The notes under the pieces were generated by a model. The model searched no databases, was not told where the DNA came from, and saw only the letters and a list, made by a program, of their open reading frames with translations. The position numbers and the translations under genes are program-made. 64,000 nt of DNA from Tsukamurella asaccharolytica (GTDB taxonomy: Bacteria; Actinomycetota; Actinomycetes; Mycobacteriales; Mycobacteriaceae), in the NCBI RefSeq assembly GCF_007858435.1, contig NZ_VIGW01000003.1, forward strand, positions 533,298 to 597,297, read 5' to 3'. Numbering within the stretch: the stretch's first letter is position 1; every line of letters starts with the position of its first letter. Below are positions 1 to 13,587 of the stretch, piece by piece.

Positions 1-6
1 CCCGAT

Positions 7-41
7 GCAGCGCCCCGTTCCCCGAGAACGGGGCGTTGCTG
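7..41. terminator. Hairpin, probable terminator
   Basis: A strong inverted repeat has arms CGCCCCGTT (11-19) and AACGGGGCG (27-35) around a 7-base loop, with outer pairing between GCAG and the TGC near 39-41. No T-tract follows on the plus strand, which is common in high-GC actinobacteria. It probably ends a gene lying left of the window or the minus-strand operon to its right. Confidence 0.55.
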
Positions 42-123
42 CGTTTCGGGCCAGCGCCACGGCGACGACACCCAACGGCGTTGTGCGGCACGGTGATGGG
101 CGAGCGAGGGCCGTGGACGGGCC

Positions 124-315
124 TCAGCCGCCCACCCCGTCAGACCGGCGCGTGAGACTGCGGAACAACTCTCCGGCCCGGCGCAGCTCGTCGTCGGTGA
201 ACGCCGACATGGTGGCCGCCAGCCACTCACGCGATCCGGTCTCCCCCGCTCGCACTGCGGAACCGGCGCGGGCGCTGACAGCGAGCGGGGTAGACCCCGC
301 CTCGGGCGCGCTCAC
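124..315 (-). CDS. Small hypothetical protein coupled to the excisionase-like gene
   Basis: A 63-residue protein I do not recognise. It begins with a GTG whose last bases overlap the TGA of the upstream helix-turn-helix gene (GTGA arrangement), which is the main reason to believe it is translated. The C-terminal half (roughly residues 36-60) is charged and probably helical, with a DDELRRAGELF stretch. It has no signal peptide or membrane segment. It probably belongs to the integration and excision side of the element. Confidence 0.45.
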   Translation of the reverse strand: MSAPEAGSTPLAVSARAGSAVRAGETGSREWLAATMSAFTDDELRRAGELFRSLTRRSDGVGG

Positions 316-593
316 TGCTCGCCGTCCTGCTTCGGGCGGTACGACTTCAAGGACGCGGGATCGACTCGGGTCAGAGTCGCGTCTACGTCCTCGGGCCGGA
401 ATCGGAGCTTCCCCCGAGGGGGCGGCCCGAGCCGGTAGGCGGGCAGGGAGCCGTCGGCAACGCGCGCCATGATGAAGTCGCGGCTGGCGTCGATGCGCGC
501 CTTCGCCTCCGCAAGGGACAGGAATCGGCCGGGCTGGTCGTCGTCCTTGACGGGCTCGACGGACACCGCTGGGGTGGTGGGAGTGGAACTCAC
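312..593 (-). CDS. Excisionase-like helix-turn-helix protein
   Basis: A 93-residue protein whose centre (residues about 24-70) has the pattern of the excisionase/MerR-type winged HTH: an FLSLAEAKARI helix, a RDFIMARVADGSLPAYRLG recognition and wing segment, and a basic GKLRFRPEDVDATL tail. Such proteins bind att or regulatory DNA in actinobacterial integrative elements and direct excision or repress neighbouring genes. It starts at GTG and is transcribed leftward, away from the repeat array. Its leftward direction fits an integrase gene lying left of the window. It could equally be a plain regulator rather than a true recombination directionality factor. Confidence 0.6.
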   Translation of the reverse strand: MSSTPTTPAVSVEPVKDDDQPGRFLSLAEAKARIDASRDFIMARVADGSLPAYRLGPPPRGKLRFRPEDVDATLTRVDPASLKSYRPKQDGEQ

Positions 594-735
594 GATGAAT
601 CGCTCTCGGGTGGAAACGAGTTCCTCGAAGCGGGCGCGGGGCGGCTACGTGGGCGGGAGCGGTGGCGTGGAGAGGTCGGGAACCGGGTCGCGTGGTGCGG
701 CCCTATGCCGGACGAAGCCTGGCAACCTACGGCAA

Positions 736-799
736 ACATACATCAGACTCGGTGAAGCGACAAGCACCGATGCGCCGAATAGCGTTGCACCACATACAT
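736..799. repeat. Pair of ACATACAT direct repeats
   Basis: ACATACAT occurs at 736-743 and again at 792-799, 56 bases apart, in a stretch less GC-rich than its surroundings. They lie upstream of the leftward excisionase-like gene and could be regulator sites or part of its promoter. Function is unknown. Confidence 0.35.
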
Positions 800-883
800 T
801 TCCTACCAGAGTCGGTGTTGTACCACCCCGCCTCGGAGAGCTGTCTCAACCCTGGCCGACGCCCGAAAAACCCGGGCCGTGAG

Positions 884-1107
884 GTTCGTGGAAAGCCCCC
901 CTATTTCGAGGTAGTTCGTGGACGGTTTCCACGAACTGATCGAGGCCGGTTCGTGGAAGTTCGTGGAAGTCGTCCACGAACTGAAAATCACCCTCTACCT
1001 GGGATGATGAACGTCACCGGAATGAAGTTCGTGGAGTTCGTGGAAGTTCGCCACGAACCGCTGGACCAAGTTCGTGGAGTTCGTGGGGGGCCTATGGCCC
1101 CACGAAC
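884..1107. repeat. Iteron-like array of the 9-mer GTTCGTGG(A/G)
   Basis: Plus-strand copies of GTTCGTGGA or GTTCGTGGG start at 884, 914, 949, 959, 1027, 1036, 1070 and 1079. Minus-strand copies lie at 928-936, 973-981, 1050-1058 (one mismatch) and 1099-1107. The pairs 1027/1036 and 1070/1079 are directly abutting 9-base units; the pair 949/959 is spaced 10. The last two copies form a long palindrome over 1079-1107. Such arrays are typical of replication-initiator iterons, partition sites or clustered operator sites. No initiator gene is seen in the window, so the bound protein is unknown. Confidence 0.8.
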
Positions 1108-1323
1108 CTCGAACGTCCCGGCGACCACGAGCCTCGAAGTGGTGCAGAACAGCGACGGGGAGGTGATCGCGATCCCCCCCACTCGGAGGCTGGGAACGGT
1201 GACAGGGCGACCGAGGCGGGGTCAGCAACGGGGGCGGGGGCATCGACCGCGACGCGGCTTCGCACGGCCGAGGCGGGGTAGGCAGCGGTGTGCGTGGCGG
1301 TGGCGGTGTAGCGCACGGAACCC

Positions 1324-1336
1324 GTTGTAGTACAAC
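1324..1336. promoter_or_regulatory. Perfect palindrome, putative operator
   Basis: GTTGTA-G-TACAAC is a perfect 13-base inverted repeat about 55 bases upstream of the small-terminase-like start at 1392. Its position suggests an operator controlling the rightward packaging operon. The cognate regulator may be one of the element's HTH proteins. Confidence 0.45.
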
Positions 1337-1391
1337 GCCTACCACTGTCGGCGATATGGACAGGCCGAGAGAATCTGTGCAGAATTTGAGC

Positions 1392-1928
1392 ATGGTCAAC
1401 CCACCCGGCAAGCCTGGCCCTCACGGCAGTCACGCCAGCAGCCGAGCCCGCGCCGAGAAGGCGCTGCGCCTGCGCTCGATGGGGCGGACCTGGCAGGAGA
1501 TCGCGGACACGTTGGGGTTCCGTTCCCGGAGCGGGGCCGAGCAGGCGGTGACCCGGCTCATCAAGGCGCGGGGTCCGGTCAACCTCGAAGAAGACCGAGC
1601 CACGTCCACCGAGATGCTGCGCGTGCTCAAGTCCACGCTGTCCACTCGGTTCGTGGCCGCCGTGGCGAACGGCGACGACGACATGGTGCTCCGGTACGCC
1701 AAAGAGCTGCGAGCCCTCGACGGCCAGCACTCGAAGCTCAACGGCACCGCCGTGCCTGAGACCCACAAGCACGACGTGACCCTCGGTAGGTCGCCGGATG
1801 AAGCACTCGCCGCCGCACGTGATGCCGCGCTCGCGGCCCTGGAAGCCCGACGCCCACTGAGCGGGGGCATCGCGGTCGCGGCCCCCGCCATCGAACCTGA
1901 GCCCCTGGAAGCCGAGGTAGTCGAATGA
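1392..1928 (+). CDS. Small terminase-like helix-turn-helix protein
   Basis: A 178-residue protein. Residues about 15-57 form a helix-turn-helix (AEKALRLRSMGRTWQEIAD, then LGFRSRSGAEQAV) of the kind found in phage small terminase subunits, followed by a helical segment that ends in ALDGQHSKLNG, a pattern I associate with actinophage small-terminase-like proteins. The acidic C-terminal tail is proline-rich. In phages this subunit recognises the packaging site and loads the large terminase, which lies 1.5 kb downstream. The ATG at 1392 was chosen because coding character begins there; an in-frame ATG at 1356 is the alternative. The stop overlaps the next gene's ATG, so the two are coupled. It could instead be a transcription regulator. 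Confidence 0.5.
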   Translation: MVNPPGKPGPHGSHASSRARAEKALRLRSMGRTWQEIADTLGFRSRSGAEQAVTRLIKARGPVNLEEDRATSTEMLRVLKSTLSTRFVAAVANGDDDMVLRYAKELRALDGQHSKLNGTAVPETHKHDVTLGRSPDEALAAARDAALAALEARRPLSGGIAVAAPAIEPEPLEAEVVE

Positions 1929-2383
1929 TGAACGACGCCGATGTGGTCAACGCCGCGTTCGACGTGCAAGCGGAGATGACGGCGGGCACGCTGAGCGCCG
2001 CCACGCTGGAGCGCGAGCTGCTCGAGACGATGCGGTCCCAGTTCGGCACCGTGGGAGCTGGACCTGGCGACCCGCTCTGGTCGCTCCACCTGGACGTGGC
2101 GCGCCAGTTCATCGCCGCCGGTGGCCTGACCTCGGGCGAGCTGCGCGAGTGGCTGAGCGTGCGCCTGCGGGCCGAGAACGGCGGGGAGCTACCCGAGGGC
2201 TCGACGCCGACGACCGAGCCAGACGAGGCCGCGCCGGTTGCACTGCTCGGCGTCGTGGAGCCCGCGCCGGAACCCGACGACGACCTGGGCGACCTTCCCG
2301 AGTCCGTGCTGGCCGACGCCGAGGCGGCGGCTCAGGCTGTCATCGACCGGTATCGCGCCGGACTGAGCGGGGTGACCGAATGA
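1925..2383 (+). CDS. Hypothetical acidic protein of the packaging operon
   Basis: A 152-residue protein of unknown function. The N-terminal 90 residues look helical (DADVVNAAFDVQAEM, then a LERELLETMRSQFG segment); the rest is Glu/Pro/Asp-rich and probably disordered. Its ATG overlaps the stop of the small-terminase-like gene and its own stop overlaps the next ATG, so it sits in a tightly coupled rightward operon. No catalytic motif, membrane segment or signal is visible. Confidence 0.6.
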   Translation: MMNDADVVNAAFDVQAEMTAGTLSAATLERELLETMRSQFGTVGAGPGDPLWSLHLDVARQFIAAGGLTSGELREWLSVRLRAENGGELPEGSTPTTEPDEAAPVALLGVVEPAPEPDDDLGDLPESVLADAEAAAQAVIDRYRAGLSGVTE

Positions 2384-2694
2384 GCCTGTTGCGCCGCCTA
2401 CGGTCCCGAACCGCTCGACCCGCGCCTGAGCACCTCGACGCCGTTCCGACGCCGCAGCGGCCCGCACAGCGCCAGGGCGGGGTGTCCAACGCTCACCCCG
2501 CGCCCACACCGGACGCGGTGCCGTCCGACGTACGCGATGCCGACCCACTGGCCGAGCACCACTTCGGCTCCCAGTTCCGAGTACGCCGAGACCACGACGA
2601 GGTACTTGCCGACCGGCTCGGGCCGCGTGCAGTGGACGCTCGAGGGCCGAGGCGGGGCGCGGGCGCGCGCCGCCCGGCACCTCGGTGTCGATGA
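2380..2694 (+). CDS. Small hypothetical protein, doubtful
   Basis: A 104-residue basic protein beginning with the ATG of an ATGA overlap with the preceding gene. The first half is proline-rich and the second half is hydrophilic (a DPLAEHHFGSQFRVRRDHD segment). No family is recognised. Codon use is less GC-rich at third positions than its neighbours, and the antisense frame of the same stretch reads almost as well, so the coding strand is uncertain. The overlap with the operon is the best argument for this frame. Confidence 0.4.
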   Translation: MSLLRRLRSRTARPAPEHLDAVPTPQRPAQRQGGVSNAHPAPTPDAVPSDVRDADPLAEHHFGSQFRVRRDHDEVLADRLGPRAVDARGPRRGAGARRPAPRCR

Positions 2695-2813
2695 AGTGCT
2701 GTTCGGCCGGGAGCCGTGATGACCGCCAGCCGCACGTCCAGTTTGAGTACACCCATACTCGACGCCAGCCGGTCCCGGTCGAGGCGTACAAATGAAGTCC
2801 ATATCGGGGTTGA

Positions 2814-2842
2814 TTGACACATGTCCAGCAACCCTATAGATT
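2814..2842 (+). promoter_or_regulatory. Sigma-70-type promoter of the serine recombinase gene
   Basis: A perfect -35 TTGACA (2814-2819) is followed after 17 bases by TAGATT (2837-2842), with an overlapping TATAGA. Two palindromes flank the core: GACA-CA-TGTC (2816-2825), overlapping the -35, and GTGTACAC (2847-2854), just downstream. These could be operator or recombinase-binding sites. The gene's ribosome site TGGAGG (2864-2869) precedes the ATG at 2875. Confidence 0.7.
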
Positions 2843-2874
2843 CTAGGTGTACACATCGGCACCTGGAGGCACCC

Positions 2875-3420
2875 ATGCGCGTTGGCTACCAACGAGTCTC
2901 GACCATCGACCAGAACACCGAGCGCCAGCTCGACGGCATCGAGGTAGAGCGCACGTTCACCGACAAGGCCAGCGGCAAGACCGCTGACCGGCCCGCGCTC
3001 ACCGAGGCACTGGGCTTCGTTCGTGAGGGCGACACCCTCGTGGTGCACAGCATGGACCGGCTGGCTCGCAACGTCGAAGACCTCCGGCGCATCGTGCGCG
3101 AGCTGACCGAGCGCGGGGTGCGCGTCGAGTTCGTCAAGGAGGCAATGACCTTCACGGGCGAGGACTCCCCGATGAACAACCTCATGCTGACGATGCTCGG
3201 CGCGGTGGCCGAGTTCGAGCGGTCGCTGATCCTGGAGCGCCAGCGGGAGGGCATTGCCGTAGCTAAGGCTCGGGGCGCATACAAGGGGCGCACGCCCAAG
3301 CTCACCGACGAGCAGGCCACCGAGCTGCGCGCTCGTCTGGCTGGCGGCGAGTCCCCCGCCGCGCTGGCTCGCGAGTACAACGTCGCACGTCAGACCGTCT
3401 ACAACTACCGAGCGGGGTAA
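2875..3420 (+). CDS. Serine recombinase, resolvase/invertase type
   Basis: A 181-residue small serine recombinase. The N-terminal catalytic domain shows the YQRVSTIDQ motif with the nucleophilic serine at residue 9, and the arginine-bearing HSMDRLARN motif. The E-helix region follows (LMLTMLGAVAEFERSLILE), and the C-terminus is a short HTH ending in ARQTVYNYR. The size fits Tn3/Gin-type resolvases and invertases, not large serine integrases, so it more likely resolves dimers or inverts DNA than integrates the element. TGGAGG at 2864-2869 sets the ATG at 2875. It has its own promoter inside the packaging operon, and the large terminase gene starts 3 bases after its stop, so the two are probably co-transcribed. 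Confidence 0.9.
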   Translation: MRVGYQRVSTIDQNTERQLDGIEVERTFTDKASGKTADRPALTEALGFVREGDTLVVHSMDRLARNVEDLRRIVRELTERGVRVEFVKEAMTFTGEDSPMNNLMLTMLGAVAEFERSLILERQREGIAVAKARGAYKGRTPKLTDEQATELRARLAGGESPAALAREYNVARQTVYNYRAG

Positions 3421-3423
3421 CTC

Positions 3424-4911
3424 ATGAGCGCACGGACCATCGACCGGACCCGAGCCCTGATCGCCGCCCGTGCGCTCCGAGCGGCACGCCGTCGCGTGCC
3501 CGCACCGGGACCGGCGCAGCTCGCCCGCCGCCTCGATCCCTCGTACGTCATCACGCCCACCATCGCGATGCTGTCCGACCTCGCCGTGCGGTCGGTGCGT
3601 GAGCGGTCGCAGCGCGACATCGTGAGCACCCCGCCGAGGTCCGGCAAGTCCCGGCTGCTGGCGGTGTGGACCACCGTCTGGGCACTGGCCGACGACCACG
3701 ACCGCGAGGTCGTGCTGGTCTCTTACAGCGATGAACTTGCAACCGCCCACGGCCGGGAGGCCCGCCAGCTCATCACCGAGCACAGCACCGAGCTGGGCAT
3801 CGCCGTCGCCTCCGACAAGAGCGCCGCCGGTCGCTGGCGCATCGAGGGCGCGCGCGGGGGCCTGCTCGCCACCGGCATCAACTCGGGCGTGACCGGCTTC
3901 GGCGCGGACATGCTCGTGCTGGACGACGTGACCAAGGACGCCGCCGAGGCCGAGTCCGAGGCCCACCGAACCCGCGTGCTCCGCGAGTACCGGTCCACGC
4001 TGAGTACGCGCCTGCACGCGGGGGCGTCCACGTTGGTGGTTGGCACCAGGTGGCATGAACACGACCTCATCGGCTCGCTGCTCACCGACGAGCCGGGCGC
4101 GTGGCGGCACACGAACATCCCCGCCGTGGCCGAGACGGGCGTACCCGACGCCCTCGGCCGCGCGCCCAGCCAGGCGCTCACCAGCGCGCTGGGATTCGAC
4201 GCCGAGCACTTCGCGAGCGCCCGCCGCACCGCTGGCGAGCGCGTCTGGTGGAGCCTGTACGAGGGCGTACCTACCGCGCCCGAGGGCGGCCTGGTCCAGC
4301 GTTCGTGGTTCGACTCGTGGCGTCTCGCCGCCGCCCCGTCGAACCCTGTCCGCACCGTCGTGGCCGTCGATCCCAGCGACAGCGGCTCCGGCGACAGCGC
4401 GGGCATCGTGGCCGCGTCCGTGACCGGCGAAGGCGTGGTCGCGCTCATCGCTGACCGGTCGGCACCCATGACCTCGGACGCCTGGGCCAGGACCGCGCTG
4501 GAGCTGGCGGTGGAGGTCGGCGCATCGGAGGTCGCGGTCGAGGCGTTCTCGGCGCGAGAGACGTACCGGCGCGTCATGTCGGAAGCCATCGACCGGCACC
4601 GTCGCAGGCACCCCGACACCGCACCCATCCGGGTCACGATGTGGCCTGAGCGGGGTCGAGGCGCGATGGGCGACGCGCTCGCCCGCAGCGGTGCGATGTT
4701 GCAGGCGTTCGAGGTCGGCACGCTACGGATCGCCGGGCACCTGCCCCGGTTCGAGCAACAGGCGCTGCGCTGGCAGCGGGGGCAGCACCAGCCCGATAGC
4801 CTCGCCGCTGCCGTGATCGCGCACGACGTGCTCGCGCCCGCGCGCGGCATGACGCTCGGCCTACCGAGTGGCCCCGCCGCGCTCCGGCTGCTGGCCCGCC
4901 GGATCGGCTAG
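3424..4911 (+). CDS. Large terminase subunit (TerL)
   Basis: A 495-residue phage DNA-packaging motor. The ATPase domain has a Walker A, STPPRSGKSRLL (residues about 68-79), a Walker B, ADMLVLDDV (161-169), and a coupling motif at GTRWHEHD (207-214). The C-terminal nuclease domain begins at VAVDPSDSGSGDSAG (about 313-327), with the acidic residues expected for metal-dependent cleavage. In phages TerL translocates DNA into the prohead through the portal and cuts it. The length is normal and the frame is intact. It starts 3 bases after the recombinase stop. No portal gene is present in the window, which is odd for a complete phage and fits a satellite that borrows one. Confidence 0.88.
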   Translation: MSARTIDRTRALIAARALRAARRRVPAPGPAQLARRLDPSYVITPTIAMLSDLAVRSVRERSQRDIVSTPPRSGKSRLLAVWTTVWALADDHDREVVLVSYSDELATAHGREARQLITEHSTELGIAVASDKSAAGRWRIEGARGGLLATGINSGVTGFGADMLVLDDVTKDAAEAESEAHRTRVLREYRSTLSTRLHAGASTLVVGTRWHEHDLIGSLLTDEPGAWRHTNIPAVAETGVPDALGRAPSQALTSALGFDAEHFASARRTAGERVWWSLYEGVPTAPEGGLVQRSWFDSWRLAAAPSNPVRTVVAVDPSDSGSGDSAGIVAASVTGEGVVALIADRSAPMTSDAWARTALELAVEVGASEVAVEAFSARETYRRVMSEAIDRHRRRHPDTAPIRVTMWPERGRGAMGDALARSGAMLQAFEVGTLRIAGHLPRFEQQALRWQRGQHQPDSLAAAVIAHDVLAPARGMTLGLPSGPAALRLLARRIG

Positions 4912-5067
4912 GGCGGGGTACACCACCCACACGCCGACGGGGCCGCGCAACCGCTTCACGTGAAACAGACATGCCCTACCGGTGTCGGTGAATTACCCAC
5001 GGCCACAGCACAATACCGACTCTTGCCCGTAGTGTGAACGGCCATCAGTGTGGCAACGTGATGCACC

Positions 5068-5304
5068 GTGAGCACGGAACGAGCACCGCACACGACGGAC
5101 GACGGGACCACCGACGACGACAGCCCCCGCTACTCGACCGCCGACGCGGCGGCGTACCTCGGAACTTCCGTGTGGACGATCCGACGATACGCGGGCGAGG
5201 GCGCCCTTCGCGGGTACCGCATCGGTTCGTCCAAGCGGGGTCAGCTCCGCTTTCGACGCGCCGACCTCGACGCGCTGCTCACGGACGCGCGGGGGCGCGC
5301 ATGA
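5068..5304 (+). CDS. Excisionase/MerR-type HTH protein
   Basis: A 78-residue DNA-binding protein. Residues about 21-73 match the excisionase-family HTH pattern: YSTADAAAYLG, VWTIRRYAGEGALRGYRIG, then a basic GQLRFRRADLDALL. It starts at GTG and its stop is overlapped by the ATG of the next frame. It is the second gene of this type in the element, after the one at 312-593, and has a similar RFR.xDlDA.L tail. It may be the recombination directionality factor or a regulator of the capsid half. Confidence 0.75.
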   Translation: MSTERAPHTTDDGTTDDDSPRYSTADAAAYLGTSVWTIRRYAGEGALRGYRIGSSKRGQLRFRRADLDALLTDARGRA

Positions 5305-5752
5305 TCACGTTGCTCGCTCCTCGCACGTCGTGGCTCCACCTGTTCCACCCCGCCAACCTCCTCGGGCCTCGGGGAAAGACGCACCACGACATGACCAGCA
5401 CGACGAACCACCGCACCACGGCCAGCAGCCCGTCCACCGACATCGACACGTCGCTGTTCCCGAGCGACCCCGCCCCCGAGCTGGTCGCGGAGGCGAAGGC
5501 CGCCGTCCTCACCGCGCTCGCTGCCTCGCCCGACGCGGTGATCGACCGCGCCTACCTCGCCCGCACGCTCCCCGGCCGCCTCACCGATCCCGTACGCCGG
5601 GTGGGGTCGCGCCCCTCTGCGCCGCGATCTGGTTCCTGCACTGCACCGACCGCGCCAGCGTCGTTCACGTCGGCACCCGAACGCTGCTGATAGGCGACTC
5701 GCTCATCCCGCCGCGCGATGAGCCCCGCGTCCGCCCCTACCTGGTGGCCTAA
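5301..5752 (+). pseudogene. Hypothetical protein with a -1 frameshift at a G run
   Basis: Coding character runs in one frame from the ATG at 5301 (possibly 5391) to about 5605, ending in a LPGRLTDPVRRVG stretch. It then continues in the -1 frame to the stop at 5752 (VAPLCAAIWFLHCTD, then VVHVGTRTLLIGDSL). The switch coincides with GTGGGGTC at 5601-5608, and one extra G would restore a 150-residue protein. This may be a real mutation, a homopolymer read error, or programmed slippage. The family is unknown. The N-terminal third is Thr/Ser-rich; the C-terminal part looks like a folded domain with two cysteines. Confidence 0.6.
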
Positions 5753-5783
5753 GCCCACCGATCATCCGAGAGAAGGAACCACC

Positions 5784-6467
5784 ATGAAGGTCATTCGCGG
5801 CAGCCGCCGACGCCCGATGGCACTGGAAGTTCGACCGGCCGCGCTCACGCAAGACCAGCAGCGCCACCGTCGGCGCACCCACCAGTTGCACACCCTCGAC
5901 GGCGCGTTCGACCTCGCTGACGAGGTGACCGCCGTCGTGGGGCCGGTCGCCGCTGCCCTCGCCAGCGAGCCCCGCCCCACCAGCGGCGCAGCGCGCGAGG
6001 CGGTGGAGACCATCGCCGCCGCCGTGGACCAGCTCGCACGCGAGGTGGGCGACATGGTTGCCGATCACCGTAGCCGCGCCGCAACGGTCGGTAACCGAGG
6101 TGCTGCCCGCAGCGCCGTCCGTGAGCTGGTGCGCCGTCCCGTCCCTGTCGTCTCCGACGACGAGCTGCGCGACGGTTCCTGGGCGGGGTCGCTGGCCGAG
6201 TTCGTCGCACCCCTGGGCACACCGCTGGCCCAGATTCTCGGCGCTGCCGCCCTCGACCGCACCCGGGTACCGGTCGAGTCGGACGCTGTGATCGACGCGC
6301 TGCGGGCGGTGGACAGGGAGGTGCGGACGCTGGAGCGCAGCATCGACACCGCCCGAGCCTGGCGGTCCAGCCTGCCCAGCCGCGAGCCCGCACCCAAGCG
6401 AGACATGTCCGGCGTGATCGCGGAACTTGACCGCCTCGGCATCGCCCACCGAGACCTCACCGCCTGA
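5784..6467 (+). CDS. Hypothetical protein, possible capsid scaffold
   Basis: A 227-residue, mostly helical protein with a basic N-terminus. Helices around residues 40-100 (DEVTAVVGPVAAALAS, then VETIAAAVDQLAREVGDMVAD) and 170-205 (VDREVRTLERSIDTARAWR) suggest a coiled-coil assembly. AGAAGGA lies 8 bases before the ATG at 5784, which is preferred to the earlier in-frame start at 5718. It sits 60 bases upstream of the capsid-like gene, where phages often keep a scaffold, and that is the only basis for the suggested role. Confidence 0.6.
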   Translation: MKVIRGSRRRPMALEVRPAALTQDQQRHRRRTHQLHTLDGAFDLADEVTAVVGPVAAALASEPRPTSGAAREAVETIAAAVDQLAREVGDMVADHRSRAATVGNRGAARSAVRELVRRPVPVVSDDELRDGSWAGSLAEFVAPLGTPLAQILGAAALDRTRVPVESDAVIDALRAVDREVRTLERSIDTARAWRSSLPSREPAPKRDMSGVIAELDRLGIAHRDLTA

Positions 6468-6527
6468 CGCCGCAGGAACCCCGAGAATCACGTACGCGGC
6501 ACTGCCGCACTGAGAGGAAAACGCACC

Positions 6528-7322
6528 ATGACCGCCCCCACGCAGCCGCAGGCGCTGCTCCCCATCGAGTTCGACCCGCCGTTGCTCAACCCCGCGCCCG
6601 GTGGCCTCTACGCCGCGACGAGGTTCGTCTCCGACAGCACCACCGAGGTGCCGCGTTGGCTCGCGTCCGGCGTGCTGGTGCGCCCGCGCATCGGCAACTA
6701 CGGCGGAGGCGAGTCCGTGGGCATCTGGGATGCGCCGTGGTGCGACACGACGCCCACCCAGCGCAAGGAGGGCGAGCGACCGGGCCTGTTGGACCCGTTC
6801 ACGCCCGCGACCGTCTGGGCGTACGCGGACGCCTGCGATATGACCGAGCCCGAGCGGTCGGTGGTCGAAGCCCGCGCACTCCAGAACCTCCGGCTCATCG
6901 AGCCGACGTTGGTCGAGCGCGAGTTCGCCGCCCGGCTGCTCATCGACGCGGGCACCCCGGTGGCAGCGCCGGACCTCGTGCGCGCCATCGGGCACCTGGA
7001 GGGCCTGTTCGCCAAGACGAACACCCTGGGCCTGATCCACCTGAACCCCGAGCTGCTCGCGGAGCTGGCGCACCTGAACCTCGTGGTGCGCGACGGCTCC
7101 GGCTTCGCCAAGTCCCCGGCCGGACACACGTACGTCCTGGGCGGTGGCTACGTCGCCGGTCTCGGCCGCACCCTCGTGGCCACCTCGCAGACGTTCGGGT
7201 GGCGCGACCAGCCGGTCACCCGCGAGGCGCTGGAGCCCCGCGAGGGCGAGTACGCCGTCATCGCGGAACGCTCGGTGGTCGTCGGCTACGAGGCCAACCT
7301 CGGCGCGGTCACCGCCGCGTAG
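6528..7322 (+). CDS. Probable phage major capsid protein (HK97-fold type)
   Basis: A 264-residue intact protein. The overall layout resembles actinophage major capsid proteins as I know them. It has an early GGLY segment and an RWLASGV strand, a helical middle (ARALQNLRLIEPTLVEREFA), then a GLIHLNPELLAELA helix, a SPAGHTYVLGGGY loop, and a C-terminal AVIAERSVVVGYEA strand. In such proteins the tail part forms the axial domain of the shell. The ribosome site GAGAGGA precedes the ATG. The gene lies after a possible scaffold and before a peptidase. A profile search or structure prediction should settle it; if wrong, it is an unknown structural-type protein. Confidence 0.6.
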   Translation: MTAPTQPQALLPIEFDPPLLNPAPGGLYAATRFVSDSTTEVPRWLASGVLVRPRIGNYGGGESVGIWDAPWCDTTPTQRKEGERPGLLDPFTPATVWAYADACDMTEPERSVVEARALQNLRLIEPTLVEREFAARLLIDAGTPVAAPDLVRAIGHLEGLFAKTNTLGLIHLNPELLAELAHLNLVVRDGSGFAKSPAGHTYVLGGGYVAGLGRTLVATSQTFGWRDQPVTREALEPREGEYAVIAERSVVVGYEANLGAVTAA

Positions 7323-7360
7323 CGCGGCGCAAGAACTTGTCGGCGCAGCGCGCGTACGGG

Positions 7361-7386
7361 CGGGCGGCCTTTGGGCGGGCCGCCCG
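7361..7386. terminator. Hairpin after the capsid-like gene
   Basis: CGGGCGGCC (7361-7369) pairs perfectly with GGCCGCCCG (7378-7386) around an 8-base loop. It lies about 40 bases past the capsid-like stop. It may terminate or attenuate transcription, lowering expression of the peptidase relative to the capsid gene. Confidence 0.5.
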
Positions 7387-7512
7387 TCGCCAACGCAGCG
7401 CGCCCGGCGAGAAGCAGGCGCGGGGGTCGCGGTCTCACAACCGGCGGCGCTGGTTTCGGACCGGCCGCCTGCTCCCGCGCCTGCACCCCACCCCCGATCA
7501 GGAGGCAAGACC

Positions 7513-8250
7513 ATGCAGTTCACGAGCGGACCCGAGTACCGCGCGGTGGCAACCCCGCCGCGTACGCCTGCCGCGCCTGCCCGTAGCGCCACCGCGCGCG
7601 CCAGCGAGGCGGGGGCGAGCACCAGCCCCGGCGCGGACCGTACGCGCCGCAACGTGGCACCTGCGGCGGGCGCGAGTGCGCGCCGGTACAGAGGCGGGGT
7701 GCCTACGCCCACCGTCGCGCGAGTCGATCCCCGGCTACGGGCGGCTGCATTCCATGAGGTCGGCCACGCGGTGGTCGCCACCGTGCTCGGTGGTCGCATC
7801 CACCGTGCTGTCCTGACGCCCGACGATCCTGCCACGGCGGGGCACTGCTCGTACGACGACCTACCAGCCGCGCATGACCCCGCCATCACCTACGCGGGGC
7901 CGTACGCGGAGACCTACGCCGCAGTCGGTGGCCCGCCCACCGCGCGCAAGGTGCGCGACACGCTGCTCCGCAACCACCAGGACCACGCCAGCCTCGTGGC
8001 CGCCGGTGACCCGCGCCCCGCCGAGGTACCGAGGATCGTGGCGACGACGTGGCAGGCCATCGACGGGCTCGCCCGCCTGCTCTACCGCGAGATGACCATC
8101 AGCCAGGCCGACGTGGACGCCGCGCTGGGTCTCCCCGACGGTGAGCGCAACCCCGAGGCGCGCGAGCACGCCCTCGCCGCCATACGTGCGGGGTCGGTAC
8201 CGGGCACGTTCGAGGTCACCTCACCACGCCTGACCGACTGGAAGCTGTAG
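7513..8250 (+). CDS. HExxH zinc metallopeptidase, FtsH-peptidase-like
   Basis: A 245-residue protein with an Ala/Pro-rich, probably disordered first 70 residues and then a peptidase-like domain. The zinc motif is FHEVGHAVVA (HEVGH at residues 81-85), as in M41 peptidases. A later AGPYAETYAAVG segment matches the place of the third ligand (the GGRxAE helix of FtsH). There is no AAA+ domain and no membrane segment, so this is a stand-alone peptidase. GGAGG 8 bases before the ATG at 7513 fixes the start. Following the capsid-like gene, it could process capsid or scaffold, but no target is visible. The loss of ATPase and the fused disordered tail are unusual. Confidence 0.65.
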   Translation: MQFTSGPEYRAVATPPRTPAAPARSATARASEAGASTSPGADRTRRNVAPAAGASARRYRGGVPTPTVARVDPRLRAAAFHEVGHAVVATVLGGRIHRAVLTPDDPATAGHCSYDDLPAAHDPAITYAGPYAETYAAVGGPPTARKVRDTLLRNHQDHASLVAAGDPRPAEVPRIVATTWQAIDGLARLLYREMTISQADVDAALGLPDGERNPEAREHALAAIRAGSVPGTFEVTSPRLTDWKL

Positions 8251-8257
8251 CGACGGC

Positions 8258-8980
8258 CTACACGCCCGGCGGCGGGGGAATCGGCGCGGTGTGCTCGGTC
8301 CACTGCGTCCCGTCCCAGTAACGCAGCAGCCCCGGCGTGCCGTGGGGGTCCGCGTGCCAACCAGCGGGTGGCAGCGTCGGCGGAAGCGGCGGTGACGCTG
8401 GCACGGCCTCGGCTTGGTCCTGGGCTCCCACTTCAATCGGGGTCGCGGTCTCAGCCTTCTTGTCGGCCAGCTTGATCGCGTGCTTGAGCTCTCGATCTCG
8501 GTCCTGCCACGCTCGAATCTCCGCCGTACCGGCCCAACGATTTCGGGATGCCTTGTGCGCGGCCCGTTGTTCTCGAAGCTCCTCGGCATAGTCGCGCGCC
8601 TGCTCCGGCGTCATACCGGAGATGTTTCGCGCCTCTTCCGCCTTGCGCTCCATGCTTTCCTGCACAAGGGCGCGGGAGGTAGGTTTCGCGGGCTGCTGCG
8701 CCTGTGGCGTTTGCGCTACCGGTGCCTGCGCTGACGGTGCGCTCGGCGGCCCCCACAGCTTCGGGCTATCGGTCGGCTTGTTCACCGACCCGCAGCCGGA
8801 GCAGCGGAGCTTGCGCCGCGCGGCCGCTGCACCGATCAGGCCGACGGGACCGACCAGCACAGCACCGATTGCGGCCTTGCCGATCATCCCCGCGCCGGAT
8901 CGCCCCGCGCTCAGGTTGATGCTGCCGCACTTCCAACAGCGAAGCCGACCGTCGGCATCAATCTGGACCTCTTCGCTCAC
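8258..8980 (-). CDS. Zinc-ribbon protein with C-terminal DUF2510
   Basis: A 240-residue protein. The N-terminus carries two CxxC pairs (CWKCGS at about 15-18 and CSGCGS at about 59-62) bracketing a glycine/alanine-rich hydrophobic stretch (MIGKAAIGAVLVGPVGLIG) that may be one membrane helix. A charged helical middle (residues 105-175) follows. The C-terminus has the DUF2510 signature PAGWHADPHGTPGLLRYWDG...W. Such modular proteins are common in actinobacteria and their phages, with unknown role. It is transcribed divergently from the Cro/CI-like gene and convergently with the peptidase gene. It could be cargo or a lysogenic function of the element. Confidence 0.75.
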   Translation of the reverse strand: MSEEVQIDADGRLRCWKCGSINLSAGRSGAGMIGKAAIGAVLVGPVGLIGAAAARRKLRCSGCGSVNKPTDSPKLWGPPSAPSAQAPVAQTPQAQQPAKPTSRALVQESMERKAEEARNISGMTPEQARDYAEELREQRAAHKASRNRWAGTAEIRAWQDRDRELKHAIKLADKKAETATPIEVGAQDQAEAVPASPPLPPTLPPAGWHADPHGTPGLLRYWDGTQWTEHTAPIPPPPGV

Positions 8981-9044
8981 CGGGCATCACCTCGGAACGA
9001 GCCGCCGACCGCCGACAAGACCGGATTCTTGATCATGCCGGAAT

Positions 9045-9076
9045 GCTACTTATCAGTCTGTAGACCTACAAGTAGC
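9045..9076. promoter_or_regulatory. Nested palindromes, putative repressor operator
   Basis: Between the divergent genes at 8980 and 9100, GCTACTT (9045-9051) pairs with AAGTAGC (9070-9076). Inside it lies TGTAG-AC-CTACA (9059-9070). This arrangement fits binding of the adjacent Cro/CI-type protein and could give a genetic switch for the two directions. Confidence 0.6.
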
Positions 9077-9099
9077 AGGTCGGCAGAGTCGATGGCGCT

Positions 9100-9318
9100 A
9101 TGGAAGGCGACCTACAGCGCACCCTCGGGCGCAACTTGCGTGCGTATCGGGCCGAGCGGGCGCTGAGCCAAGAAGCCTTCGCAGACGTGCTCGGCGTCCA
9201 CCGCACCTACATGGGCGGGCTGGAACGCGGCGAGCGCAACCTGACGTTGCGGTCGGTCGAGAAGATCGCCGACACCCTCCAGCTCGATCCGCTGGTGCTG
9301 CTGCGCGACGAAGGCTGA
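9100..9318 (+). CDS. Cro/CI-type transcription regulator
   Basis: A 72-residue XRE-family protein that is essentially one HTH domain (residues 8-66), with LSQEAFADVLGVHRTYMGGLERGERNLT as the two DNA-binding helices and turn. It has no extra dimerisation or protease-sensing domain, so it is closer to Cro-like or immunity-type regulators. It lies beside nested palindromes at 9045-9076 and is divergent from the zinc-ribbon gene. It probably controls both directions and may be the element's lysogeny regulator. Confidence 0.85.
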   Translation: MEGDLQRTLGRNLRAYRAERALSQEAFADVLGVHRTYMGGLERGERNLTLRSVEKIADTLQLDPLVLLRDEG

Positions 9319-9447
9319 CCGCGCGGCGCGAACGCACGCGGGCGGCTCCGCATTTCTGGATTTTTCCGACGAGAAGTTTTGTCAGTGCGCAGCTCTAGAC
9401 TCCGCGCTAGGCGCGCCCGCCGGGTGCCCCGGATCGAGGATGTCAAC

Positions 9448-10305
9448 ATGGGAGACCCGACTACTGTTCCCGTGCCGCAGCAGGCACCACAGGTACCCGT
9501 CGAGCTGCTGATCACCCAATCGGTCGCGACGACCATCGGCGTGTTGATCGCCCTGGCCGTGGCAGTCCTGACCTATGTCAAGATGCGCCAAGACCGCAAG
9601 CGCGACGACGAACGGGCGCGTGAGGACCGAGATCGGTACGAGACGCAGCTCGCGACGCTACAGCGCGCTGAGCGCGACCGTATCGAGGCCCAGGCTCGCC
9701 GAATCGTCCCCACCGTCTTCCCGGCGGAGATGTTCGGCCCCAACGTCTGGACGGTGCGCGTCGTCAACAGCAGCAGCGCACCAATCACAGAGCTGGGCGT
9801 GCAGGTGGTCGCGTTCGACGCCGACGGGAAGGAAGTCGAAAACGGCCTGACAAAGAGTAGTGCAGTTGGCTTGGACCAAGCGATTGAGCGCATGGTGCGG
9901 CCCATCATCCGGTCCGCGATGAACGCAGGCATGGGTTCGATTCAAATGTCTGGCCCCGGACTATCGGGGCCTATCGCTGCAGCGATGGGAGCACGGGCAG
10001 ACCAAGCGGCGAACGCGGCGGCTCCGCAGATGTCCGCTCGGGTACGCGAAGCGGTGACCGGGTCAATGGTCTCTGTGTGGCCCCGGACCCTGATTCCCGA
10101 ACAGCCCGCGATCATGACCTTCGAGGCAGCAGCGGGGGTAGTCGATCTGGGGGTCCTCATCCAGTTCACGGACGAGGCGGGGTACCGCTGGATGCGCACT
10201 GACGAGACCATGCCTCAACAGATTCACGACGACACACCGCCCGCCGAGAACGGCTCTGACGAACCATCCGTGGCTGCACGGAGGTGGTGGAAGTTCTGGG
10301 CCTAG
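9448..10305 (+). CDS. Membrane-anchored hypothetical protein
   Basis: A 285-residue protein with one N-terminal membrane helix (about residues 30-49, VATTIGVLIALAVAVLTYVK) followed by a strongly charged coiled coil (50-85) and then a beta-rich globular part. The globular part has a VWTVRVVNSSSAPITELGV stretch, like an immunoglobulin-type fold, and the protein ends in basic and aromatic residues. The ATG at 9448 with an upstream GAGG is preferred to a TTG at 9379. No family is recognised. It sits in the accessory segment after the regulator and may be superinfection-exclusion, immunity or defence cargo, but that is a guess from position and topology. Confidence 0.7.
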   Translation: MGDPTTVPVPQQAPQVPVELLITQSVATTIGVLIALAVAVLTYVKMRQDRKRDDERAREDRDRYETQLATLQRAERDRIEAQARRIVPTVFPAEMFGPNVWTVRVVNSSSAPITELGVQVVAFDADGKEVENGLTKSSAVGLDQAIERMVRPIIRSAMNAGMGSIQMSGPGLSGPIAAAMGARADQAANAAAPQMSARVREAVTGSMVSVWPRTLIPEQPAIMTFEAAAGVVDLGVLIQFTDEAGYRWMRTDETMPQQIHDDTPPAENGSDEPSVAARRWWKFWA

Positions 10306-10343
10306 TCGCGCGTCACCGACGAGCCACGAGTCTTACCCTGGCG

Positions 10344-11177
10344 CTACCCTTCCACGCCGGGCTCGTTGCCCTTGGCCGCAATATCAATCTCACTGCCCGC
10401 TGGCCTACCGTCAGTCCACCGCTGGTCCTGTGCGGAGTAGAGGGACACAGTCGGCTTTCGCGTACTCTCACCGGCCTTCTTGCGCCCACTGTAGGAAACC
10501 CGGTATTCAGCGGGGTCTCCGCTTGTTCTCCTGAAAGTCAGAATCCACGGAACGCCCTGCAACCCGCCCGACTTGTTGTACGGCCGAAATGACCCGACAA
10601 GATTGCCGACCGTCCAGGACCCGCTAGCGTTGCCGTCGCGCCACCAATTCACCACATCCGCGAGGACCTTCAGCGGTACCGCCGACGGCAGTCTGTACTC
10701 CCCCTGCTCTTCGATCTCGATGATGCCGGTCGAATCTGCATCGTCTACTTCAAGATCATCGACGGCAGAATCTTGCTCATTCCCGTCACGCGCCTCGTCC
10801 GGACCGGGGGCTTGAGACGCGGCGAAAGCCCCCTGCATCTCCTGCAGTAGTACCGCCGACTCAGTCGTACGTCGCGAGATTGCGTCAAGAAGGGTCCTCT
10901 GCCGTCTGTTCTCGCGCTCTCCTTGACGCTTCTGGGCCTGGTAAATCGTCACCGCGAGACCCGCGCCCAGCGCCGTGATTCCCAGCGACAGAACGCCCAG
11001 TGCGTCCAGCCCGTTATCCAATACCTCACCCAACTTGAGCAGCCAGATCACCAGCGCGGCGGCTCCGAGAAGGTACAGGACCAACTCGGCAACTCTCGCA
11101 AGCTTCTCCCACACCAGAGACCGCTTCGCCCGCGCCTCACCCCCAGGGGCGGCAGCGTCGCCGTCACGTAAGTCCAA
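10344..11177 (-). CDS. Two-helix membrane protein with soluble C-terminal domain
   Basis: A 277-residue protein of unknown function. Two membrane helices lie at about residues 28-47 (VAELVLYLLGAAALVIWLL) and 58-80. They are followed by a basic stretch (KRQGERENRRQRT), an acidic linker (about 120-160), and a folded C-terminal domain with DVVNWWRDGN and WILTFRR segments. It appears to start at TTG (11177), with GAAGG 8 bases upstream; no better in-frame ATG exists. It is convergent with the other membrane-anchored gene and close to the element's right edge, a usual place for cargo genes. Confidence 0.7.
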   Translation of the reverse strand: MDLRDGDAAAPGGEARAKRSLVWEKLARVAELVLYLLGAAALVIWLLKLGEVLDNGLDALGVLSLGITALGAGLAVTIYQAQKRQGERENRRQRTLLDAISRRTTESAVLLQEMQGAFAASQAPGPDEARDGNEQDSAVDDLEVDDADSTGIIEIEEQGEYRLPSAVPLKVLADVVNWWRDGNASGSWTVGNLVGSFRPYNKSGGLQGVPWILTFRRTSGDPAEYRVSYSGRKKAGESTRKPTVSLYSAQDQRWTDGRPAGSEIDIAAKGNEPGVEG

Positions 11178-11185
11178 AGTCAGCC

Positions 11186-11205
11186 CTTCGACGTAGGCGT
11201 CGAAG
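11186..11205. other. Inverted repeat near the element's right edge
   Basis: CTTCGAC (11186-11192) and GTCGAAG (11199-11205) flank GTAGGC. It lies just upstream of the TTG-start membrane gene and 34 bases from the flavodoxin stop. It may be an operator, a terminator for the flavodoxin gene read leftward, or part of an integration site. Confidence 0.35.
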
Positions 11206-11238
11206 CGCCTCTGTTCGTGTTGTCATTCCGTCCTACCC

Positions 11239-11712
11239 CTACATGAGCTGAGCGGCGACCGTCGCGCCGAGGTTCCAGCACGCCTCCAGGTCGGCCTTCG
11301 ACGGCTTGCCAGACACGACCACGTTGGGCGTGACCTTCTCCCAGCCGAGGCCGCCGGTGATCGAATCGGCCGCCCGCTCGGCCCCCTCGGTGCCCTCGTT
11401 GCCGTGGACGTAGAAGCCCCACGGCCGCCCCCGCGTGGAGTCGAGGCACGGGTAGTAGATGTTGTCGAGCCCGTGCTTGAGCGCGCCGCTGAGGTACCCG
11501 AGGTTCGCCGGGGTGCCGAGCACGTAGCCGTCGGCCTCCAGCACGTCGGCGGGCGACAGCGTGAGCGCAGCACGCCGCACGACTTCCACGCCCTCGATGT
11601 CAGGATCGGTCGCCCCCGCCACCACGGCCTCGAACATCTCCTGGCAGTGGGGCGAAGGCGTGTGGTGCACGATCAGGAGACGGTGCGGGGCGGCGGAATC
11701 AGGCGCTGACAT
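11239..11712 (-). CDS. Flavodoxin-like protein (Rv2771c family), intact copy
   Basis: A 157-residue flavodoxin-fold protein. It has an N-terminal strand and phosphate loop (LLIVHHTPSPHC), a GYVLGTPANLGYLSGALKH flavin-contact loop, and a C-terminal helix ending in the stop. It probably binds FMN and acts as a small oxidoreductase. A purine-rich GGGGG site precedes the ATG at 11710-11712. The gene overlaps the 3' end of a second, truncated copy (11699-11965). The two differ at many scattered positions, so this is not a recent duplication. In M. tuberculosis one gene of this kind follows dapB and Rv2772c. This copy may belong to the mobile element and replace the interrupted one. Confidence 0.85.
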   Translation of the reverse strand: MSAPDSAAPHRLLIVHHTPSPHCQEMFEAVVAGATDPDIEGVEVVRRAALTLSPADVLEADGYVLGTPANLGYLSGALKHGLDNIYYPCLDSTRGRPWGFYVHGNEGTEGAERAADSITGGLGWEKVTPNVVVSGKPSKADLEACWNLGATVAAQLM

Positions 11713-11761
11713 CGGCAGACCCCCTATTACAGGGGTATTTGACATTGAAGTGCTTGAGCGC
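11473..11761. other. Shared 12-mer at the split flavodoxin genes, candidate att core
   Basis: GTGCTTGAGCGC occurs at 11473-11484 in the intact flavodoxin gene and at 11750-11761 in the truncated one, exactly where the truncated reading frame loses most similarity. The DNA between 11715 and 11749 is unusually AT-rich and includes a CCCCT-ATTAC-AGGGG hairpin. This may be a site-specific recombination junction. The matching left end would lie outside the window. Confidence 0.35.
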
Positions 11762-11964
11762 ACCGGAGATGTAGCCGAGGTTCGCGGGCGAGCCGAGCAC
11801 GTAGCCGTCGGCGGCCAGCACATCCGAGGCGGTGACCGCCAATGCTGCGCGGCGCACCACCTCCACGCCCTCGATGTCCGGATCGGTGGCTCCCGCGATC
11901 ACCGCCTCGAACATCTCCTGGCAATGCGGAGACGGCGTGTGGTGGATCACGAGGAGCACGGCCA

Positions 11965-11965
<1 letters not shown>
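11699..11965 (-). pseudogene. 5' fragment of a second flavodoxin-like gene
   Basis: An 88-residue frame whose first 73 residues closely parallel the intact copy (VIHHTPSPHCQEMFEAV, DGYVLGSPANLGYISGALKH) and then depart into a short tail before stopping. The last half of the flavodoxin fold is missing, so the protein is probably not functional. It begins with an ATG that shares a base with the TGA of the upstream membrane-protein gene, the native arrangement, so this is likely the chromosomal original, cut by insertion or deletion. A faint resemblance continues past the break (NVKYPC against NIYYPC), so a simple deletion is the alternative. Confidence 0.75.

Positions 11966-13587
<1,622 letters not shown>

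Follow-up and report, generated by a model that had tools for sequence, protein, structure and literature searches.

A capsid pentamer gene in a probable integrative phage satellite of Tsukamurella asaccharolytica

The 4.12-Mb genome of Tsukamurella asaccharolytica contains, on contig NZ_VIGW01000003.1, an inserted element of 15.27 kb that we regard, with a probability of roughly 85%, as an integrative phage satellite of Mycobacteriales. The analysis concerned a stretch of 64,000 nucleotides (contig positions 533298-597297, hereafter the window, whose first letter is position 1), and a further 20 kb was read leftward of it. Two features mark the element as a satellite: it is compact and integrated, with integrase, regulators, replication and packaging genes and without most virion genes, and it recurs as a conserved lineage apart from prophages. 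The product of the gene at 6528-7322 is the pentamer (vertex) protein of cluster-B-type mycobacteriophages and Gordonia phages (identity up to 54.6%), and this gene sits between those for a helical protein, here called O249, and an HExxH peptidase. A gene for the hexamer partner was not found with a hexamer profile, either in the element or anywhere else in the genome sequence. We consider it reasonably probable that the element depends on a helper phage, and that the captured vertex protein, together with O249 and the peptidase, redirects the helper capsid to a smaller size.

Core genes and recurrence of the element

The core genes are given here with their profile matches in brackets; positions left of the window are negative.

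-3534 to -2065, plus strand: large serine integrase, 489 amino acids, likely ATG at -3495 (phrog_95, 5e-82)
-1869 to 230, minus strand: AAA_25 ATPase of replication type, 699 amino acids, N-terminal end at 1-230 (PF13481, 4.3e-20; phrog_2597 primase, 1.5e-7)
312 to 593, minus strand: HTH_17 excisionase-like protein (Pfam 0.001, below cut-off; phrog_66, 2.2e-5)
1290 to 1928, plus strand: helix-turn-helix (HTH) DNA-binding protein, candidate small terminase (TerS-like)
1925 to 2383, plus strand: O152, 152 amino acids, following the TerS-like gene (phrog_27872, 1.4e-18)
2821 to 3420, plus strand: small serine resolvase/invertase (Resolvase, 2.3e-38; HTH_7, 4.2e-9)
3424 to 4911, plus strand: large terminase, TerL (phrog_38, 8.7e-82; Terminase_6N, 2.2e-11)
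5068 to 5304, plus strand: HTH_17 excisionase/regulator-like protein (2.9e-10)
5784 to 6467, plus strand: O249, helical protein that characterises the element family (AlphaFold2 pLDDT 91.8)
6528 to 7322, plus strand: major capsid pentamer (vertex) protein, HK97 fold (phrog_779, 5.1e-80)
7465 to 8250, plus strand: HExxH metallopeptidase-like protein, PEPT (frame 7144-8250, 7465 being the likely start; Peptidase_M50B, 8e-6)

A preliminary description, made from the letters of the window alone, had named a small-terminase-like HTH gene, TerL, a metallopeptidase, excisionase-like genes and an internal serine recombinase, and all of these appear above, the first as a candidate. Its capsid-like protein proved to be two things: 6528-7322 is indeed a capsid gene, specifically one for a pentamer, and 5718-6467 is the separate, non-capsid gene O249. 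TerL shares 60-64% identity with four Mycobacterium abscessus prophages and phage Dori. The TerS-like protein, whose sequence varies between elements more than that of most shared genes, has a homologue in Dori; the annotations of its phage homologues go no further than DNA-binding/HTH, hypothetical or 'Rnase E'. By eye, a small coding stretch apparently split over two frames lies between the HTH_17 gene and O249, at 5330-5752.

Structural-gene profiles for portal, hexamer, head protease, major tail, tape-measure and adaptor were built from Dori, NHagos and prophiT48-1, and none of them gave a match between -6000 and 14000 at either E 1e-5 or E 0.1. General family libraries gave no portal-family match among the open reading frames (ORFs) scanned, and no lysin was found among the 19 ORFs scanned. 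The earlier statement that portal, tail, lysin and holin are all missing thus holds for the first three, and is qualified for the holin by weak matches in a 308-residue protein at 9379-10305.

Pentamer matches occurred in 4 of 16 genomes of the genus and in 33 of 401 genomes of the family (some of them very weak), at 27 loci in genome_contigs and at 71 in IMG/VR; two Tsukamurella records also had a match, and plasmids gave none. From the family and genus matches (36 family places listed) we took 20-kb stretches at the 23 best-scoring or same-genus places, with G046 added later, and the profile scan covered these 23 places, all genome_contigs and IMG/VR loci and our own element. Among the 122 pentamer loci (duplicates included), 78 are phage loci, all without O249, in which one or more of the genes for hexamer, portal, head protease and major tail occur; another 42 have O249 and none of these four genes. 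The remaining two are special, L054 being a broken pentamer by itself and L103 coming from M. barrassiae. Even with profiles at E 0.1, the sole structural match among the 43 element loci (L103 included) was a hexamer N-domain in L103, and the 78 phage loci gave hexamer in 75, portal in 61, protease in 69, major tail in 70, tape-measure in 49 and adaptor in 65.

In L103 the peptidase ORF (10910-11734) starts with about 70 residues like the N-terminus of a helper-type hexamer (E 7.5e-11 among 40 ORFs, 4.1e-8 among all). We considered this locus as an exception to the split between elements and phages and rejected it as such, since the match is this short stretch on the peptidase ORF. The stretch ties the peptidase to capsid assembly and, judging from this one case, a hexamer N-terminal segment could bring a protease into the forming head.

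Merging identical O249 left 35 distinct elements, L103 included. Pentamer and O249 are present in all 35, the TerS-like protein in 34, the peptidase in 32, O152 in 27, the resolvase profile in 26, TerL in 19 and an integrase of the same type in 13, the stretches often being too short to reach the integrase. The three elements without peptidase (L101, L108 and L112) lie on contigs that end directly after the pentamer. The order O249-pentamer-peptidase, co-oriented, was found in 36 of the 43 element loci, and the named hosts are Gordonia, Rhodococcus, Tsukamurella, Mycobacterium/Mycolicibacterium and Williamsia. The preliminary description had suggested that a portal and tail module immediately to the left, or relatives in which these genes belong to a full-length prophage, would speak against a compact packaging satellite; neither was found, since the left side holds an integrase and host genes and the gene set recurs outside any full-length prophage.

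O249 gave no meaningful Pfam, PHROG or NCBIfam match, and neither O249 nor the peptidase had a match in the phage records searched; within what was searched, both are restricted to such elements. The AlphaFold2 model of O249 is confident and all-helical. The HExxH motif is kept in 40 of 40 PEPT ORFs, as against 4 of 43 O249 ORFs taken as a control. O249 itself was found in 27 of the 401 family genomes, and an order-wide search retrieved it in 5 of 397 genomes, one of them outside the family at E 3.9e-4.

Two loci have further genes near the core set. In L230 (G046), positions 9771-12523 carry a pentamer and a helper-type head-protease domain on the strand opposite to O249 and the peptidase. 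In L097, the interval between the resolvase and O249 holds, at 6146-7829, ORFs that by eye resemble a Vsr-type nuclease and a DNA methyltransferase, possibly a restriction-modification cargo.

Pentamer proteins of elements and phages

A tree built from 94 distinct pentamer proteins, of which elements supplied 34, has element and phage sequences intermingled. The element label changes 13 times over the tree, at least 8 of these changes being forced by well-supported branches; a single element clade appeared in 0 of 200 bootstrap trees and was rejected by the approximately unbiased test (p 0.00017). The bootstrap was not fully settled, and some branches are long, that of our element included. 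A 61,670-base contig, putatively Gordonia phage Sour, falls into one group with the element pentamers from Tsukamurella, Gordonia and Rhodococcus. A second clade holds 16 elements, the named ones all from Mycobacterium/Mycolicibacterium, together with contigs that are putatively Imvubu and Adawi, and other Mycobacterium elements are placed elsewhere. This grouping with putative Sour, Imvubu and Adawi contigs suggests that element pentamers track helpers.

The pentamer is under purifying selection: the ratio of nonsynonymous to synonymous substitution rates (dN/dS; Nei-Gojobori, own script) was 0.06-0.28 in 10 of the 12 pairs compared, one further pair being identical. The ratio was not used for divergent partners, namely TerS, most RES, some PEPT and the pentamers of our element and T. 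spumae. The latter two share about 53% identity despite 98% for the integrases of the same elements, and modules have therefore been swapped. A Foldseek structure search with the pentamer retrieved the HK97 fold, with encapsulins among the neighbours and 7rwz, the SaPIbov5 procapsid with Ccm, at rank 15. No sequence relationship to Ccm was detected, phmmer giving no PDB chain at E<=1 though 7rwz is in the PDB.

Insertion site and remaining genes

The ends of the element and its remaining genes are the following.

about -3750 to -3522, minus strand: C-terminal remnant of the split host FMN-reductase-like gene
1 to 11750, no strand: right 11.75 kb of the element, inside the window
8258 to 8980, minus strand: DUF2510 protein, cargo, possibly with a zinc ribbon (DUF2510, 3.8e-15; zinc ribbon, 0.011)
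9100 to 9318, plus strand: Cro/CI-type HTH regulator (93% identity in G012 and G004)
9379 to 10305, plus strand: 308-residue protein, cargo, with a hydrophobic stretch near the N-terminus by eye (weak PHROG holin matches, 0.0077 and 0.093)
10344 to 11177, minus strand: 277-residue protein, cargo, without a family match
11239 to 11712, minus strand: intact FMN-reductase-like gene carried by the element just inside attR (FMN_red, 0.0018, below the curated cut-off)
11750 to 11752, no strand: attR core CAC within the host FMN-reductase-like gene, the N-terminal part of which runs on to 11965

The element extends from about -3520 to 11750, its left part lying beyond the window start. The preliminary description had placed it at 1-11240 and supposed that it continued leftward; it does so, and its right end is 11750, so that the FMN-reductase-like gene is included. 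Further left are what we take, from recognition of the translations, to be ftsK-like, rnj-like, dapA and thyA genes and a DUF222/HNH gene. attL and attR share the core CAC, and T. spumae (G012) and G004 have the same element-side sequence next to different host-side sequence. The insertion interrupts the host FMN-reductase-like gene, with the N-terminal part reaching to 11750 and the C-terminal part starting from about -3522; the uninterrupted gene reads ALKHAFDT(I/F)YYPC in nine same-genus single-copy loci (L069-L077; L078 and L079 fell outside the search pattern). Judged from att positions, the elements of G012 and G004 measure about 14.0 kb, that of Rhodococcus L090 about 14.1 kb and that of Mycobacterium sp. 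141 (L094) about 15.4 kb.

The FMN-reductase-like copy just inside attR is 97% identical to the copies in G004 and G012 and about 78-81% identical to the two host halves, and therefore travels with the element. Full or near-full copies are carried by our element, by G012/G004/L092, L094, L090/L043, L046 and L041, and a partial one by L042/L089. Among the loci L067, L068 and L083, the sole FMN-reductase-like copy of G003 is of the 97%-like type, and G009 combines a copy of this type with a C-terminal remnant that lies about 1.2 kb away; these arrangements may be traces that lost elements left behind, or else may show where the copy came from.

The regulator at 9100-9318, which the preliminary description had correctly called Cro/CI-type, scores in PADLOC as a restriction-modification control protein (1.7e-16). 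PADLOC gave matches for this small HTH protein alone, with control-protein-like ones first.

Proposed helper dependence, alternatives and relation to known satellites

We propose that the integrase inserts the element into the FMN-reductase-like gene, where the carried intact copy would make good the loss; excision would join the host reading frame ALKHAFDTIYYPC again across the core CAC. Infection by a helper with a capsid of hexamers and pentamers, of the Dori, Sour or cluster-B kind, would be the trigger on which the element excises and replicates using its own AAA protein. The pentamer, O249 and the HExxH peptidase would then be produced, and element pentamers would combine with helper hexamers, with O249 as a scaffold-like size factor. 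Assembly would thereby shift to a small shell, probably of T=4, in which the helper genome would not fit. Packaging of the 15-kb element would fall to the TerS-like protein together with a TerL, either the element's own or that of the helper, and hexamer, portal and tails would come from the helper.

If capacity scales with T^1.5 and a 60-70 kb phage has a T=9 head (T=9 being shown for Rosebush only), arithmetic assigns 18-21 kb to a T=4 shell and 11.5-13.5 kb to a T=3 shell, so that elements of 14.0-15.4 kb fit T=4. TerL was not seen in 16 of the 35 distinct elements in the stretch examined (L101, L108 and L112, which are short or cut contigs, being among the 16), as would be expected if the helper's TerL worked with the element's own recognition protein. 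Since only 1 of the 27 element-bearing genomes has a hexamer gene by profile, the helper is probably an incoming phage. That single genome is the one of L231 (G391:C238), and its element has no pentamer. Distant hexamer relatives (33-34%) are present in G005:C2 (L087) and G013:C200 (L088), two genomes of the genus without a pentamer match, where the capsids may pair with a different vertex protein. As a possible helper, the Tsukamurella phage TIN3 was set aside because its layout, as annotated, looks different.

A decayed Dori-like prophage that kept its terminase and one capsid gene, which the preliminary description had allowed for, would explain why TerL and the pentamer are Dori-like and why the TerS-like protein has a Dori homologue. 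We nevertheless find it very unlikely: the same arrangement with O249 and peptidase, which have no phage match, recurs in 35 distinct elements, the pentamer keeps a low dN/dS in 10 close pairs, the integrase is 98% identical in other species with different host flanks, and the profiles reveal no hexamer or portal remnant in our element. The lone broken pentamer of L054 shows what real decay looks like. Nor does it seem at all probable that the host has domesticated a phage-derived module that lost its mobility; no helper is resident and the split gene is replaced, as such a history would predict, and yet the pentamer is present in just 4 of the 16 Tsukamurella genomes, and near-identical integrases across species and matching att ends speak for movement.

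The pentamer protein of the satellite might instead poison helper assembly, as a defence or interference factor outside any satellite particle, with element DNA travelling as concatemers in normal-size helper heads; the element's own terminase genes would permit such packaging, four 15.3-kb units make 61 kb, near helper-type genome sizes by arithmetic, and members without a pentamer exist. We judge this unlikely, though worth keeping in mind: pentamers that are under purifying selection and interleaved with those of phages suit incorporation into a shell, and a poison would be expected to diverge from the functional subunit. The HK97 fold, the encapsulins among the structural neighbours and the geometry by which pentamers alone can close a T=1 shell would also allow an encapsulin-like container for protein or DNA cargo. 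Such a shell would hold only about 2-3 kb by volume scaling from T=9, far under 15 kb; the terminase gene implies DNA packaging via a portal, which the element lacks, and interleaving with phage pentamers is again hard to reconcile with it, leaving this role highly doubtful.

Against a helper-dependent satellite that redirects capsids stand several points. The TerS role is suggested by the HTH and the gene position; the O249 model had no significant fold match; and no isolated Tsukamurella helper was identified. The fusion in L103 is the only such case found, and the dN/dS between our pentamer and that of T. spumae is 0.71, for a pair that is too divergent. Seven of the 43 element loci either lack a common orientation of the three genes or have no peptidase within the stretch. 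Finally, 11 of the 27 O249-bearing genomes gave no pentamer match, and in 10 of these 11 the peptidase follows directly after O249; O249 and peptidase are therefore the core and the pentamer a frequent addition, and the core function may be independent of the pentamer. These pentamer-less loci are L219-L229, one of them in the same genus (G010); in L228 O249 is spread over two frames, and in L229 only pieces of O249 and the peptidase match.

The preliminary description had likened the element to capsid-forming phage-inducible chromosomal islands (cf-PICIs). As described in PMC10690885, these encode a complete capsid-forming set of major capsid protein, protease, portal and connectors. The likeness fails on the features compared, because only the vertex subunit is encoded and the profiles revealed neither a hexamer nor a portal, head protease or adaptor. 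SaPIbov5 is the nearer functional parallel: its HK97-fold capsid homologue Ccm, according to PMC8569155, takes pentamer positions and redirects the capsid to small heads. The helper of SaPIbov5 has a single capsid protein, of which Ccm is a homologue (PMC8569155), whereas the protein of our element is a dedicated pentamer of two-protein capsids; in addition, the pentamer of the element family was taken up several times and adjoins O249 and the peptidase.

The Streptomyces satellites MulchRoom and MiniFlayer, as PMC10690885 presents them, are likewise actinobacterial satellites with terminase and head genes, having portal, major capsid, scaffold and adaptor and no known primases; by these descriptions our element is set apart by its lone vertex subunit and its replication-type ATPase. 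Candidate Mycobacterium PICIs, including phiRv1 and phiRv2, were identified by the presence of integration machinery and a major capsid gene, some of them having a serine integrase, terminase and helicase (PMC10654092, main text). The word 'pentamer' does not occur in that main text; the description sets these candidates apart, and some of them could belong to the element family. Dori, NHagos and Sour have relatives of the pentamer and TerL and are likely of the helper type, Dori and NHagos differing as full phages with hexamer, portal, protease and tail; these four, by which a cluster-B-type prophage is recognised, were not found in the element. No pentamer-only satellite was recognisable among the literature matches listed, which came from open-licence papers. 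What would be new is a satellite family with an unusual capsid strategy; satellites as such, and pentamer-borne size redirection by Ccm, were known.

Going beyond our element, we put forward tentatively, as something quite possible, that an undescribed and widespread family of satellites in Mycobacteriales, recognisable by O249 and the HExxH peptidase, has repeatedly captured vertex proteins from two-protein phage capsids. It would force helpers into small heads, O249 setting the size and the peptidase acting as a protease directed to the head, and vertex-protein swapping would be a general form of capsid piracy. If this is true, O249 and the peptidase would serve as markers for satellites that may escape searches based on complete major capsid genes, and the rescue of the insertion-site gene would be a further pattern that the element offers. 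With hexamer and pentamer as separate proteins, one could test cleanly if the supply of the vertex protein is enough to set the size of the capsid. Actinobacterial satellites would then have reached the SaPIbov5 trick, the supply of pentamers, by way of a ready-made vertex gene renewed from their helpers.

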